A stretch of 64,000 nt of DNA, taken from the IMG/VR virus record IMGVR_UViG_3300049215_000223, positions 1 to 64,000 of that record, one strand, 5' to 3'. The notes under the pieces were generated by a model. It was not told where the DNA came from and did no database searches. It saw nothing but the letters and a program-made list of their open reading frames with translations. The stretch is from a virus. The position numbers and the translations under genes were made by a program. Below, one piece after another: positions 5 to 48,296 of this stretch. Every line of letters starts with the position of its first letter. The first letter of the stretch is position 1.

Positions 5-75
5 CAAATAGTATGGGAATTGAACCCATCTCGATTCTATTACAAGTAGAACTGAAGCACCAGCTTCCACTATTA
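5..75 (-). tRNA. tRNA-Thr (anticodon TGT)
   Basis: The minus strand folds into a tRNA. The acceptor is TAATAGT/ACTATTT (6 of 7 pairs) and the T-stem ATGGG/CCCAT carries the loop TTCAATT. The anticodon stem TTCTA/TAGAA carries the loop CTTGTAA, which gives anticodon TGT (reads ACA). The variable loop is TCGAG. The D-arm is odd: it can only form a short-looped hairpin (GAAGC-TGGT-GCTTC). No CCA is encoded. Folded by eye, so exact ends may shift by one base. Confidence 0.72.
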
Positions 76-2711: not shown

Positions 2712-3041
2712 TATAATCTTTCTAAAAAAGAATATCTCAATCAGAAACGACAAGAGCGTCGTCAATCAAGATATCTTTATTTATTGAATTATTTATCAAA
2801 TCATGGGTGCGTGGATTGCGGAGAAACCGATCCTATCGTATTAGATTTTGACCATGTATCAGGTGACAAAATTGACGCTCTTAGTCATATGGCACATGCT
2901 GTTAGACCAATGGATGTTATCCAACAAGAGATTGAAAAATGTCAGATTAGATGTTCAAACTGCCATAGAAGAAAAACTGCCAAGGAGCAGAATTGGTACT
3001 ACTATGTAGATTTTTCTAATATGACACTGAAGACTTCGTAA
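2712..3041 (+). CDS. HNH homing endonuclease, 5' end unclear
   Basis: A basic N-terminal region leads into CVDCGETDPIVLDFDHV (first Cys pair and catalytic DH) and CQIRCSNCHRRKTAKEQ (second Cys pair and HxxR), a classic HNH nuclease. The frame is open leftward through antisense sequence, but no ATG lies near the homology start, so a non-ATG start or 5' truncation is likely. It sits on the opposite strand between duplicated ends of a minus-strand gene and overlaps the right copy by 26 nt. Confidence 0.75.
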   Translation, partial: YNLSKKEYLNQKRQERRQSRYLYLLNYLSNHGCVDCGETDPIVLDFDHVSGDKIDALSHMAHAVRPMDVIQQEIEKCQIRCSNCHRRKTAKEQNWYYYVDFSNMTLKTS

Positions 3042-3933
3042 AGGGTTTTACTAGACCTTTCTTGATATCTTCCTGGAATTTTTCCCAGTATCCAATAGGA
3101 TATAGCTTCAAGATATCAAGAGCGTTTTCGTATGCGAAAGCTCTAAACCAACCACTGGTAATAGAGCTGCACACTTTACTCAAGGCAAACTTCCAGGCGT
3201 ATTCTGGAGTCCATACATTGGGGTGTGGTACGAGAGAACGCTCAATGGCAAGAACGGCAGCCTCTTCGATAACACCATTCATTCGCACTTCCTTGGGAAG
3301 AGCAAAGAATTTGTTCTTGTCGCACTGAACCTGCTCGCCATCCTTCATGTAATAGGTGTAAGCTGGTCGCTCACCACGAGCAACGGATTCATGAATAGTA
3401 TCATGGTCATACACGTACTGAATAGCGTCGTCAGCAAAGAACCCATCCTTGGATTGATTCAGTTTGGGGTGAGAATAGTTGTAGGTCTCTTTCTCACGGA
3501 GCTTGAAGAAGGCTTGGTACTCCGGGCGAATCTCACAACCCACATGTTTCAACACATGGTAGTCAAGTAGAGTCTTCCAGAAGTGTGGGCTGTTCTTCAA
3601 GTACTTATGTGAAGCCTTGATGGTGAACAGCATGTCCAGCGAGGGAACATCACCGAAAGGAGTCTCGATAGATTCCGGATCACCTTCTACGATATCCAAA
3701 AGCATTTCCGTGCTGGTACCAGGAACATTGATTTCGAATTCGCAGTTGGTAGAACCTTCCACGATCATCTTGTTCTTGACAGCATACACCTTGGTCGGAT
3801 TGACCTTGGCGGAATTCTTTTCCATCCAAGTATCAAACTCTTCCTTCGTGCAAACGAAGTCAAAGTCCTTAGGTTGACGCATCAAAAGCTTGGGCGCGCG
3901 AAGTGCCAAAGCACGAGAGCCAATGAGAATCAT
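3016..3933 (-). CDS. Putative nucleotidyltransferase-fold protein (305 aa)
   Basis: Begins MILIGSRALALR and continues to PKDFDFVC, matching the GS-x-AL...D-x-D pattern of minimal nucleotidyltransferases. The rest is helical with several aromatic patches. Its last 55 residues are duplicated at 2544-2711 beyond the HNH insertion. Substrate unknown. The fold call rests on the N-terminal motif only. Confidence 0.55.
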   Translation of the reverse strand: MILIGSRALALRAPKLLMRQPKDFDFVCTKEEFDTWMEKNSAKVNPTKVYAVKNKMIVEGSTNCEFEINVPGTSTEMLLDIVEGDPESIETPFGDVPSLDMLFTIKASHKYLKNSPHFWKTLLDYHVLKHVGCEIRPEYQAFFKLREKETYNYSHPKLNQSKDGFFADDAIQYVYDHDTIHESVARGERPAYTYYMKDGEQVQCDKNKFFALPKEVRMNGVIEEAAVLAIERSLVPHPNVWTPEYAWKFALSKVCSSITSGWFRAFAYENALDILKLYPIGYWEKFQEDIKKGLVKPFTKSSVSY

Positions 3934-11837: not shown

Positions 11838-12362
11838 TTACCCGAATACGTGTTTGAACATTTTGCATTGATAGCACAAGTATGTGCCATCACGCTTGTC
11901 TGCGTAAGCGTCTGGATTATACTCGGCGTGAGAGCCACGACAAGTAGCTCCAGGAGTTGTAGCTTGGAAAGGAGAATCATCTTCATCCTCTTCTTCCTCG
12001 ACCTCTTCTACCTCCTCCTCGTCACACAATGCCACGAAGAAGTCGGGAGCCCAAGCAGTGGGAACACAACCTACAGTAGAGATTTGGTGTTCATTTACGT
12101 AGTAGAATTGAACATGTTCTGAATCGCAATTAATATTGCACGTGTTCCAGAACTCCAAAACTTTATCAAGCTGATTTAGAAGCACAAAATTATTCAGAGC
12201 TTGTGCGTCAGTTGCTTGATCCACATCGCTCATGTCCCATTCGTTTTCGATGATGGACATGATTTCCGTACTTGCTTGCGTGAGCGCTTCGTACTCTGTA
12301 TTCCAAAGAGTAATCCTATTCTCGTCGTCATACGGATATGACATTGTGAGTACCCACACCAT
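11838..12362 (-). CDS. 174-aa protein with acidic run and C-terminal Cys ribbon
   Basis: Start 12362 is preceded by AAAGGACG. An alpha/beta body, then an uninterrupted acidic stretch (EEEVEEVEEEEDEDD) near residues 115-130, then CRGSHAEYNPDAY...CYQCKMF, a possible zinc ribbon. It is downstream of a sigma-54-like box and a 15-bp element. Function unknown. Confidence 0.6.
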   Translation of the reverse strand: MVWVLTMSYPYDDENRITLWNTEYEALTQASTEIMSIIENEWDMSDVDQATDAQALNNFVLLNQLDKVLEFWNTCNINCDSEHVQFYYVNEHQISTVGCVPTAWAPDFFVALCDEEEVEEVEEEEDEDDSPFQATTPGATCRGSHAEYNPDAYADKRDGTYLCYQCKMFKHVFG

Positions 12363-12475: not shown

Positions 12476-12521
12476 TGGCTGTCCAGCCTGGACTCGAACC
12501 AGGGACCTGAGCTACTGAACA
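12476..12521 (-). ncRNA. tRNA-like minihelix with encoded CCA
   Basis: TGTTCAG pairs over all 7 positions (one G-U) with CTGGACA, followed by discriminator G and an encoded CCA. The T-arm is CCTGG, loop TTCGAGT, CCAGG. Between the first acceptor strand and the T-arm lies only TAGCTCAGGTC (11 nt), so D and anticodon arms are missing. The connector begins like positions 8-15 of a normal tRNA (TAGCTCAG), which suggests an internal deletion. The element at 97-139 has the same plan. Confidence 0.6.
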
Positions 12522-12526
12522 ATACT

Positions 12527-12727
12527 TCAAAGGAAAATGCGGCGAAGATATTCGCGCGCAATTACGAATGGAATGAAAGGCAATGCAAAGACTGCTAGCC
12601 CACCATCACCACTATGATCGCTCTTGTGACCAGAAATTGCATACCACGCCCAAACAACAGCGCATAATGCTAACCACAAAAACAGTAAGGCTAGTGGGAC
12701 ACCCACCACCCAATAAATGACATGCAT
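12527..12727 (-). CDS. Membrane protein (66 aa)
   Basis: One long hydrophobic N-terminal helix (VVGVPLALLFLWLALCAVVW), a polar loop, a second hydrophobic segment and a basic end (REYLRRIFL). Function unknown. Confidence 0.55.
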   Translation of the reverse strand: MHVIYWVVGVPLALLFLWLALCAVVWAWYAISGHKSDHSGDGGLAVFALPFIPFVIAREYLRRIFL

Positions 12728-12940
12728 TTAGTTTTTCCAATTCTCCCAAAGTCTTAGAGCCCGTTCCTTATTCGGAGTACAACGCTCACGAACGTATACA
12801 TCAAGAGGCTCTTTGAATGTGCGCCCGCATACAAGGCAGTCTGCACTAGACTGCATCCCTAAACGATTAGTGTTTTGATGGTGAGCCAATGCATGACCAA
12901 ACCTATCAAACACAATCTTGGGATCGTATGGGGAACTCAT
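12728..12940 (-). CDS. 70-aa protein with His pair and CxxC
   Basis: HALAHHQNTNRLGM followed by ADCLVCGRTF suggests one zinc site. A basic helical end follows (RCTPNKERALRLWENWKN). Start 12940 overlaps the TGA of the frame upstream (ATGA). Confidence 0.6.
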   Translation of the reverse strand: MSSPYDPKIVFDRFGHALAHHQNTNRLGMQSSADCLVCGRTFKEPLDVYVRERCTPNKERALRLWENWKN

Positions 12941-13486: not shown

Positions 13487-14197
13487 TTACTTTAGAAGTC
13501 CACGTACACCTGAACCCAAACCAGGTTTGGATTGCAAAGTGGATCCAGCTTGGTGACCTGTTCGCCACGCATCGGCATCAATGTTAGACTTGAAGCTAAC
13601 TGATCTAGATGAAGGATACTTGTGCTTCATAAGAGCGGCTGCATCATCCGCATGTTTATCCACAATTGCCAAAGCACTTGAAGATGCTTGCGCACGAACT
13701 TCTTTCTTGGCGGCAGCTAGCGATTCACCAATCGCTTGCACTGCGCCGAGGTAGAAACTGTTGTGCCAATGCTTGCCTTCACCACGATTGAGATCGCGAG
13801 GAGCAAGTAGATTGGCAAGACGAACCAGCTCTACCGCGAAGTAGGCATACTGATATCGCACCGTAGCAATATCAGACGGACGACCAATGCAATAGAATCC
13901 AAGCTTGCGATCCGCATTGTATCTGAGAACACCCTCGCACGCATATGCTTGCGTCAAGTATGTTAGCATTACATTCTGCCAACGCGTTTGCCGTTGATTC
14001 CAATCGGTAACTGCAATGCCATCTTCGATGGTTACTTCATTGCTACCTTCGGTGATTTCCAATTCAGCTTCTGCCAGGCAGTGTTCCTGAATTAGCTTCT
14101 CAGCCAAACGCGCAGCCGTAGCCGCTTCGTTCAGATTGCTGGATGTAGAAAGGTTCCGTAGTTTACGAACCTTATCGATCACAGATTCTCGTTCCAT
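13487..14197 (-). CDS. DUF2786-type protein (236 aa)
   Basis: Residues 1-45 (VIDKVRKLRNLST...NEAATAARLAEKLIQEH) match the DUF2786 helical repeat pattern found in many phage and bacterial proteins. The longer body (residues 60-236) follows the usual partner-domain layout. Molecular role unknown. Confidence 0.65.
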   Translation of the reverse strand: MERESVIDKVRKLRNLSTSSNLNEAATAARLAEKLIQEHCLAEAELEITEGSNEVTIEDGIAVTDWNQRQTRWQNVMLTYLTQAYACEGVLRYNADRKLGFYCIGRPSDIATVRYQYAYFAVELVRLANLLAPRDLNRGEGKHWHNSFYLGAVQAIGESLAAAKKEVRAQASSSALAIVDKHADDAAALMKHKYPSSRSVSFKSNIDADAWRTGHQAGSTLQSKPGLGSGVRGLLK

Positions 14198-15102: not shown

Positions 15103-15178
15103 AAAAGAAATGCGGGCGCTAATACGGAGCAGCTATGCCGGAAAGGAGGACTTGTTGCCTATCCATATCGGCGCCCAG

Positions 15179-15236
15179 CGCAATATAGGGGAGTCGAACC
15201 ACCCACAACAGGTTCCGGTGAACGGATTACCATTGC
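15179..15236 (-). ncRNA. Degenerate tRNA-like element
   Basis: Acceptor-like GCAATGG/ATATTGC (5 pairs plus G-U) and a T-arm with loop TTCGACT (stem 3 pairs plus one wobble). A 26-nt interior can form a 4-bp GTTC/GAAC hairpin. Discriminator G, no CCA. Weaker than the two minihelices. Confidence 0.35.
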
Positions 15237-29447: not shown

Positions 29448-29586
29448 TAGCTAAGAGCATCCCCTTGGGGCATTACGCTTTTATGCTTAGCTATAGAGAG
29501 TAAAGAGCGGAGCACTATAGCATGGTTCAGTAACTAATTACAGCACGCAGCGCGCCTGTATAACACACTATAGTCGGTCTGCTCTT
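29448..29586 (-). ncRNA. Candidate structured RNA, two stem-loops
   Basis: Stem 1: TAGCTAA + GCAT with ATGC + TTAGCTA (29448-29493), apex CCCC/GGGG. Stem 2: AAGAGC/GCTCTT (29503-29508 with 29581-29586) plus ACTATAG/CTATAGT, with an internal loop. No gene in 29434-29701. Strand unknown; minus assumed. Confidence 0.4.
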
Positions 29587-29588
29587 AG

Positions 29589-29669
29589 TTGTGGATTAGG
29601 GAATCGAACCCAATGCGACACCAACCTTGGAAGGCGCAACGTCCCGTTGCCTTTTCAGTGTCATTCACA
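29589..29669 (-). ncRNA. tRNA-like element with enlarged middle arm
   Basis: TGTGAAT/ATCCACA acceptor-like stem (6 of 7), T-arm with loop TTCGATT, and a central arm closed by GACAC/GTGTC that contains a strong CAACG/CGTTG hairpin where D and anticodon arms would be. No CCA. Abuts the structured RNA on its left. Confidence 0.35.
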
Positions 29670-46591: not shown

Positions 46592-47202
46592 GAAAATATC
46601 AAGTAAGTTTTCATCTTGGTGAGAAAATGTTCCTTGTTCCTAAACCTATATCGTGGTAGCAACGGAAGTACGATTGAACCAATAGAATCAGCTCCCCAAT
46701 TATTTTCTAGACTATAATCTTTTTTACCATATGTCAAGGCGCTTTTATTTTCTTTAAAACTAGATGCCATCACATACCAATTGATATTATCACTACAAGA
46801 TAATACTTCATTCTCAATAGGGAATGAGTAAATAAATTCTTTAGTTAAATCAAATCGTAAACACTCACTTTTAATATAAGTAAGACAGCTGCAAAAAGAT
46901 TCTATCCAAATATCATTCTCTGTTAAAAATTTTAATAATCTGGGCTCATCATTTGTTTTAAACTTATTGGTCTTATGAAATATTTTAAGTTTGAGAGTCT
47001 TTTTGTAAGTAATTCTTAAATTCATTTCTACATACTCTGGTGTTACCAGAGGAGTTATCTCTACATTTTTTTCTTCATCAGATTTAGATCCTCTTCCTGT
47101 AGTAATTGATTTTCTAGTTACTATTTTAATAGTAACCGCTTCGCCACAACTGAAACAGGGATTATTATAAGTAATAAAATCTTTAACAGTAAATTTTTTC
47201 AT
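46588..47202 (-). CDS. Long Cys-ribbon array protein (204 aa)
   Basis: VKDFITYNNPCFSCGEA...SFCSCLTYI, end KEHFLTKMKTYLIFS. TAATG overlap with prfB upstream: the release-factor gene sits inside the array transcript. Confidence 0.65.
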   Translation of the reverse strand: MKKFTVKDFITYNNPCFSCGEAVTIKIVTRKSITTGRGSKSDEEKNVEITPLVTPEYVEMNLRITYKKTLKLKIFHKTNKFKTNDEPRLLKFLTENDIWIESFCSCLTYIKSECLRFDLTKEFIYSFPIENEVLSCSDNINWYVMASSFKENKSALTYGKKDYSLENNWGADSIGSIVLPLLPRYRFRNKEHFLTKMKTYLIFS

Positions 47203-48296
47203 TATTCTAATTTACTCTTTGTATGAAGAAACGAAACAATGAACCCATGTAAGTTCCCATTAAGCACATCATCGGCATCCCTAATCTCATGTTCAGTACG
47301 ATGATCTTTAACAAGTTGATAAGGAGAAAGCGTGTATGTACGCATTTGATTACCAAAAGCATTTTCTGATTGTGATAAGAAGTATTTTTCTTTTTCGGAC
47401 ATTTGCTTCTTCAGTTCTATGTCATACAACTTAGCTTTAAGCATTTTTAGAGCCGTTCGTTTGTTAGCGTGAAAGTCTCTTTCCGTTCTAACGAAGATAT
47501 GTATACCACTAGGAAAATGCTTTAATCTAACTGCCGAACTTACCTTGTTCTGGTTTTGACCTCCAGGTCCACCAGAAGTTTGAGCTGTTATTTCCATATC
47601 TTTATCATTTATCTTTATGTCAATTGTGTCTTCAATGTCAGGCACAACAGCCACAGCGGCAAAAGAGGTATGTCGAGCGTCGCCAGAGTTAAAAGGAGAG
47701 TTACGGATCAGTCTATGAACTCCAGCTTCTCCCTTAAAGAAACCATATGCATAAGGACCATCTATCCTTAGAGATACAGAATCGGTACAGATGCCGCCAT
47801 GCTCTTCAGATGGCTTCATGTCTAATATCTCTAGTTTGAATTTATAACTATCTGCATAGCGAGAATACATACGGAGCAGCATAGTAACCCAATTGGCTGC
47901 CTCCAAGCCTCCTGCGCCTGCGCTGATGGTCAAAATGGCAGGGTTGTTATCTGTAGGATCATTCATCATTTCTTGAAACTCAATTCTGGACAGAATCTCT
48001 TCTACCAAACTGATTTCAGGAATCATAGCCTCTGTTTCTTTAGGCATGGTATTCAGGCACTCTTGAAAGAAAGATACCTGCTCTTTGAGGTATGCCAACT
48101 GCTCTAACAAATCGGATAGCTTCTGCCTTTCCTTCATAAGATCGGCAGCTTCTTTAGGATTGTCCCAAAAGTTAGGGTTGTTGACGAGACTATCTATTTG
48201 TTCCAATCGCAATGTGTGCTGATTGACTGGAACCATTTTTTCCAGGGATTTTATTTTGCCCTGGCAGGATTCAATTAATTGTATTATAGTTTTCAT
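47202..48296 (-). CDS. prfB: Peptide chain release factor 2
   Basis: A 364-aa, full-length class-1 release factor that terminates translation at UGA and UAA. N-terminal helical domain; the SPF codon-recognition tripeptide is in LIRNSPFNSGDARHTSF; the catalytic GGQ is in SGGPGGQNQNK. The C-terminal YQLVKDHRT stretch is typical. SPF, rather than PxT, marks RF2. Unlike most bacterial prfB there is no internal UGA frameshift. It is coupled by overlaps to array genes on both sides, whose stop codons are mostly UGA. Confidence 0.93.
   Translation of the reverse strand: MKTIIQLIESCQGKIKSLEKMVPVNQHTLRLEQIDSLVNNPNFWDNPKEAADLMKERQKLSDLLEQLAYLKEQVSFFQECLNTMPKETEAMIPEISLVEEILSRIEFQEMMNDPTDNNPAILTISAGAGGLEAANWVTMLLRMYSRYADSYKFKLEILDMKPSEEHGGICTDSVSLRIDGPYAYGFFKGEAGVHRLIRNSPFNSGDARHTSFAAVAVVPDIEDTIDIKINDKDMEITAQTSGGPGGQNQNKVSSAVRLKHFPSGIHIFVRTERDFHANKRTALKMLKAKLYDIELKKQMSEKEKYFLSQSENAFGNQMRTYTLSPYQLVKDHRTEHEIRDADDVLNGNLHGFIVSFLHTKSKLE

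Follow-up and report, generated by a model that had tools for sequence, protein, structure and literature searches.

A phage-borne tRNA minihelix, reduced to acceptor stem and T-arm and placed past a stop codon in an operon, may be an intercistronic processing signal

Minihelices are the textbook minimal domain of tRNA and are known mainly from laboratory constructs. The tRNA-like domain of tmRNA, mascRNA and viral tRNA-like structures also have an acceptor stem and T-arm without a normal anticodon arm, and are possible substrates of tRNA enzymes. Structured RNA is also found between genes: tRNA punctuation, with RNase P cleavage in intercistronic mRNA, occurs in organelles and in E. coli operons, and RNase III sites sit between the early genes of T7. 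In vitro, the combination of acceptor stem, T-stem and T-loop suffices for cleavage by bacterial RNase P (PMC11143913).

The window analysed here comprises 64,000 nucleotides (positions 1 to 64,000) of the 178,722-base phage record IMGVR_UViG_3300049215_000223. A preliminary description had reported in it a tRNA minihelix with a 7-bp acceptor, T-arm, discriminator G, encoded CCA and 11-nt connector, and the sequence and coordinates proved exact on the minus strand (Table 1). All seven acceptor pairs (one of them U-G) and all five T-stem pairs are present, the T-loop is consensus, and the structure generated by RNAfold consisted of exactly the acceptor and T-stem helices. The D-arm, anticodon arm and variable region of the canonical tRNA (RF00005) are missing. 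Folding energy was unexceptional relative to shuffled sequences (z -0.30); what is special about the element is its tRNA-specific combination of parts and not its energy. It was unreported by ARAGORN and had no Rfam match, whether at the gathering threshold or with E values up to 10. The connector opens with TAGCTCAG, which corresponds to U8-G15 of an ordinary tRNA, and the element is thus tRNA-derived: it descends from a tRNA gene and has been reduced to acceptor stem and T-arm.

A pattern of T-loop, T-stem and acceptor with a connector of 6-30 nt was scanned across the record and five relatives (1.35 Mb). Six sites were returned, and the Markov-shuffled control gave nine matches in 6.7 Mb, or about 0.24 expected per 178-kb record. 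Only two of the six sites, the present element and one in a relative (G006), had all seven acceptor pairs. The element is present in the 178-kb record as a single copy.

Table 1. Location of the minihelices, their parts and neighbouring or related features in the window
Feature	Position	Strand	Sequence, evidence or context
tRNA-derived minihelix	12476..12521	minus	sequence, RNAfold, genome-wide scan with shuffles
Minihelix 5' acceptor	12521-12515	minus	TGTTCAG
Minihelix connector, 11 nt	12514-12504	minus	TAGCTCAGGTC
Minihelix T-stem/loop	12503-12487	minus	CCTGG-TTCGAGT-CCAGG
Minihelix 3' acceptor	12486-12480	minus	CTGGACA
Minihelix discriminator	12479	minus	G
Minihelix encoded CCA	12478-12476	minus	CCA
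66-aa putative membrane protein ORF	12527..12727	minus	stop ends 5 nt upstream of minihelix 12476-12521
70-aa ORF	12728..12940	minus	TAA stop abuts ATG of 66-aa ORF; same operon
Next downstream ORF	11838..12362	minus	ATG at 12362, GAAAGGAC upstream; 113 nt past minihelix CCA
Second minihelix	94..139	minus	T-loop/T-stem/acceptor scan; models R2 and R3, both built without 94-139
Full-length tRNA-Thr (UGU)	5..75	minus	ARAGORN; 18 nt downstream of minihelix 94-139
RNA ligase (PF09414)	540-1511	minus	near tRNA-Thr and minihelix 94-139
DUF7275/DUF7277 protein	3016-3933	minus	near tRNA-Thr and minihelix 94-139
Release factor, RF1/RF2 family (PCRF and RF-1 domains)	47202-48296	minus	phage-encoded

The minihelix sits inside an operon of small co-directional ORFs on the minus strand. 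Its placement directly past a stop codon had been overlooked in the preliminary description, as had the minihelix at 94-139. Neither the 66-aa ORF nor the ORF at 11838-12362 matched a Pfam or PHROGs family, the 236-aa ORF at 13487-14197 retrieved no relatives as a query, and no DNA similar to the surrounding region was found in INPHARED phages. Terminator calling around the element returned none, and promoter-like matches were at chance level. No homologous DNA was found at this site in 15 related records; an orthologue was therefore not found among them, and selection on the element cannot be demonstrated. The phage also encodes a contractile-tail sheath, NrdA and a DnaB-like helicase, and a PhuZ-tubulin match was weak. 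By eye, the N-terminus of the DUF7275/DUF7277 protein is nucleotidyltransferase-like (GSRA...DFDFV); this protein and the RNA ligase possibly act in tRNA repair or end maturation.

Other structured sequences were seen in the record. A 63-nt hairpin at 15114-15176 (minus strand) has a conserved loop (TAGGCAACAAGTCCTCC...GGCATAGCT) and no Rfam match. Its counterpart near 202.5 kb in relative G006 has kept the loop and has the 13-bp stem swapped for different pairs, and the two fold far better than shuffled sequences (z -2.6 and -4.7, respectively). At 15176-15236 and 29586-29669 (minus strand), T-arm motifs are flanked by acceptor-like ends that pair in part; these are possibly decayed or D-armless tRNA-like sequences.

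The second minihelix reads, on the minus strand from 139 to 94, GCATTGT ATGGCAACCAA TCAGG TTCGAGT CCTGG TCAATGC G CTG, with an 11-nt connector. Six of seven acceptor pairs and five of five T-stem pairs are present, GG occupies element positions 10-11, the tail is CTG without CCA, and a 35-codon frame stops at -8. The neighbouring tRNA-Thr is the sole full tRNA gene called by ARAGORN in the record. In relative G006, whose sheath is 73% identical to that of the present phage, a minihelix with a 12-nt connector (GCGGCAT ATAGGCGCCTAG GTGGG TTCGACT CCCAC ATGCCGC) is located between two ORFs.

A covariance-model search, as the preliminary description had suggested, did yield relatives. Minihelices with a connector GG from phage contigs, a Ligilactobacillus megaplasmid and a haloarchaeal plasmid apparently constitute an undescribed family; no description of natural intergenic minihelices was found in the open-access literature, which does not in itself prove novelty. 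The family is characterized by a split helix of 12 bp, which covaries extensively, together with a TTCRANY loop, a connector of 8-17 nt (mode 11-12) and a conserved GG. The covariance search of fetched loci identified a 42-kb phage (G016) in which a single operon holds four minihelices; each is at or just past a gene end and is followed by a hairpin, an ACAAAC-type leader (ACAAACAAAC), GGAG and the next ATG. Two relatives of this phage (neighbour protein 90% and 69% identical) have three and four such units, likewise followed by hairpin, leader, GGAG and ATG, with 12/12 pairs despite sequence change, and in an orthologous unit of the group the acceptor has changed from ACCTG/CAGGT to ACCCGA/TCGGGT. 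Arrays of about 20 and about 14 minihelices are present in a 180 kb record that matches Ligilactobacillus salivarius plasmids (G023) and in the complete plasmid NZ_CP123973.1, and array copies with shared flanks have undergone compensatory changes in the T-stem (e.g. TGGTGG/CTACCA versus TAACGG/CCGTTA). A complete Halobaculum plasmid holds one minihelix, with 11/12 pairs, just past a gene. In L140/G023 (60-75 kb) and NZ_CP123973.1 (88.5-97.5 kb), the arrays are dense, the DNA is largely non-coding, and a small hairpin follows each minihelix.

The family was collected by degenerate patterns, a biased sampling that gave 51 distinct elements among the matches listed. Members were picked for pairing, and their 100% pairing is thus by construction. 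In the last pattern scan, which was blind to pairing, the full 12-bp helix was found in 35 of 124 matches, and shuffled viral sequence gave one match in 2.47 Mb. Across 12 aligned members, 11 of the 12 pairs have changed on both sides; the covariation score was 1.17, whereas shuffles gave 0.25 (0/500) and sliding gave no more than 0.25, and 61 cells were changed on both sides versus 17.5 in shuffles (0/500). Among the 51 elements, 41 start at most 16 nt from the stop of an ORF of at least 60 codons, and 35 have an ORF stop within -12 to +3, compared with 5.9% of random positions. Downstream of 35/51 there is a Shine-Dalgarno-like site with a start, versus 31%. The GG is at element positions 9-11 in 26/26 connectors of the G016 group and G023, and probably corresponds to the GG of the D-loop, which docks in the T-loop. 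GG minihelices are probably intercistronic processing signals, which would be cut by RNase P and mark cut sites in long messages.

Family membership of the two window elements was assessed with models R2 and R3, for which training used other phages and plasmid only and both elements were excluded. The top two matches in each search were 94-139 and the G006 element (E 0.014 and 0.002 with R2 in 0.38 Mb; E 0.0012 and 0.013 with R3 in 1.08 Mb), and in cellular loci R3 matched T-arms only (model positions 19-35). Model R1, trained on window elements and thus not independent evidence, ranked many ordinary tRNA 3' halves. Judged by these sequence comparisons, 94-139 is assigned to the GG family. The element at 12476-12521 agrees with the family in its helices and TTCRANY loop (7+5 pairs, TTCGAGT), connector length (11 nt) and placement (stop at -5). 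It was missing from both the R2 and R3 lists at E values up to 10, and its GG is at element positions 15-16, versus 9-11 in the family; on these two counts it is left outside the GG family. Somewhat short of probable is the broader proposal that both elements represent a natural class of phage and plasmid minihelices that is widespread and undescribed, built of acceptor, T-arm and a D-loop-like connector with a T-loop-docking GG, that would serve as intercistronic punctuation cut by host tRNA-processing enzymes.

A complete scan of viral contigs with TAGCTCAR-N4-8-GGTTCRANTCC returned 31 loci. A perfect acceptor was present in three of the four loci whose gap makes the connector 11 nt long (L055, L125, L136) versus two of 27 at neighbouring gaps (Fisher p 0.008). 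Placement of the other TAGCTCAG-type minihelices (L055, L125, L136, L223) after ORF stops is not tight. In cellular genomes, no N-free, acceptor-intact TAGCTCAR-type minihelix with an 11-nt connector was found among the matches listed. The first scans, for TAGCTCAG...GGTTC, gave mostly anticodon-armless, D-arm-bearing tRNA-like sequences and ordinary tRNA pieces, and the short-gap subset alone is relevant here. The anticodon-armless sequences, seen in L013, L015, L033, L047, L059, L076 and many more viral loci, have a 7-bp acceptor, D-arm and T-arm, with about 8 nt (often CYWWRGGTC-like) replacing the anticodon arm; several passed the Rfam tRNA threshold and none was called by ARAGORN in the loci checked. 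One of them is conserved and unannotated downstream of the endolysin gene in Lactococcus phage 63301 and other lactococcal phages (L063/L481).

The explanation favoured for 12476-12521, which we place only a little short of probable, is that of a processing signal between operon messages. RNase P accepts an acceptor plus T-arm and the minihelix lies directly after a stop in an operon, and it is thus most simply a processing signal. The preliminary description had called the element a minimal RNase P substrate, and acceptor stem, T-stem and T-loop together are an established model substrate of the bacterial enzyme (PMC11143913). In the operon transcript, 12476-12521 would fold into the minihelix, RNase P could cut its 5' side (12521/12522), with which the predicted structure is compatible, and a 3' tRNA nuclease could trim its 3' side. 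The upstream message would be parted from the downstream message, structured ends would remain, and the element would work like the intercistronic minihelices of other phages and plasmids. We infer that the element is transcribed, that it is cleaved by RNase P, that the phage benefits, and that this is the job of 12476-12521 itself. The intact helices and CCA, the upstream ORF stop at -5, the covarying minihelices of matching size and architecture between genes of unrelated mobile elements, and the recurrence in viral contigs of 11-nt-connector minihelices with a perfect acceptor argue for a processing signal; the absence from the R2 and R3 lists, the position of the GG and the loose placement of TAGCTCAG-type minihelices argue against it. 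If an ordinary tRNA had recently lost 30 nt, its helices would be just as intact, which weakens the processing-signal reading.

Such a dead tRNA gene is a close rival and a serious possibility. An internal deletion of about 30 nt would have taken the D-loop, anticodon arm and variable region from a tRNA with an Asn- or Gln-like end, leaving a remnant not yet decayed. Consistent with this, the connector, TAGCTCAG followed by GTC, reads as a normal D-arm start joined to a variable-loop end, the element lacks the GG signature, and further decayed-looking T-arm sites occur at 15190 and 29600 in the record. A related 446-kb phage (G009) carries about 50 tRNAs, several of them odd, on a single strand, and no orthologue is at hand to show selection. 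However, two minihelices with 11-nt connectors in the record, plus one with 12 nt in a relative, exceed chance, viral contigs have their perfect acceptors concentrated where the connector is 11 nt, and the position 5 nt past an ORF stop fits the functional family.

The preliminary description had also raised an aminoacylated minihelix. Its acceptor combines U1-A72 and U3-A70 with G73 and lacks G3-U70 and G-1, and the element has no anticodon; to our knowledge, none of the identity sets used by minihelices is thus present. The U1-A72/G73 end presumably resembles that of tRNA-Asn or -Gln, the synthetases for which need the anticodon, and EF-Tu binding requires a charged RNA. From its sequence, charging of the element appears unlikely.

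Nothing pointed to a primer or to a decoy, both of which had been suggested. As a decoy, the element would compete for enzymes that handle tRNAs or for host defences directed against them (RNase P, CCA enzyme, TruB/TrmA, nucleases), which is improbable. The parts recognised by such enzymes are kept, an RNA-ligase gene adjoins minihelix 94-139, and phages employ tRNAs against defences (e.g. PMC11555353, PMC13096335). However, the element occurs once and lacks a clear dedicated promoter, known tRNA-cutting defences mostly target the anticodon or variable loop that it lacks, and the GG family is fixed to gene ends, which would be needless for a free decoy.

Marginally less credible still is a tRNA mimic that acts where it stands, at the stop codon or the 3' end of the mRNA, promoting termination-reinitiation or serving as a tRNA-like 3' end that protects the upstream message. 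In 12 of the 51 family elements among the matches listed, the stop codon overlaps the first helix base, and a terminating ribosome and the folded helix would thus be mutually exclusive; tails are CTA or CAA in 15 of the 51, and CCA is rare. Against this, the L. salivarius arrays are in non-coding DNA and not past genes.

An assembly artefact, in which a normal tRNA was collapsed, is very unlikely. All four acceptor-intact minihelix-like matches in draft cellular genomes among the matches listed contain Ns, as the tRNA gene middles do in L338, L357, L382 and L384, and N-filled assembly gaps within tRNAs mimic minihelices and are a trap for pattern scans. However, 12476-12521 has no N, the joint would need to be present in reads, and the class also occurs in the complete plasmids NZ_CP123973.1 and NZ_CP058532.1. 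A phage attachment site carrying the 3' part of a host tRNA was rejected as scarcely credible: attP sites often carry a tRNA 3' end, but this element also has the 5' strand of the acceptor, paired with the 3' strand, and no tyrosine integrase (PF00589) was found in the possibly fragmentary 178-kb record.

If minihelices do form a natural intergenic family, its spread over phages, a Gram-positive megaplasmid and an archaeal plasmid would indicate that mobile elements turn the universal machinery of tRNA processing to cutting their messages. The minihelices would then provide a natural test of RNase P requirements and account for tRNA-like pieces overlooked by annotation tools. The tRNA-like domain of tmRNA, mascRNA and viral tRNA-like structures likewise keep the acceptor and T-arm, but are larger and have other domains, whereas the minihelix has no mRNA-like part. 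In the plastid-ycf2 5'UTR RNA (Rfam RF04354), an acceptor-like stem closes a T-arm-like hairpin; 94-139 matches it in antisense (21.6 bits, E 0.043), on the opposite strand to a plastid RNA and below the 65.7-bit gathering score, and 12476-12521 had no match to RF04354. The RNase III sites of T7 are also repeated structured processing sites between phage genes, but differ in structure and presumably in enzyme. In tRNA punctuation, a tRNA-like structure between genes likewise marks a processing site; a full tRNA or a stem of less definite form usually does the punctuating, whereas here it would be a dedicated minihelix that lacks the D-arm, the anticodon and the variable region. The RNase P model substrates AT1 and pMini share with the minihelix the coaxial acceptor/T-stem helix, the T-loop and the 3' RCCA (PMC11143913), but these are artificial, whereas 12476-12521 is natural and genomic, has an 11-nt connector and lies between gene ends.
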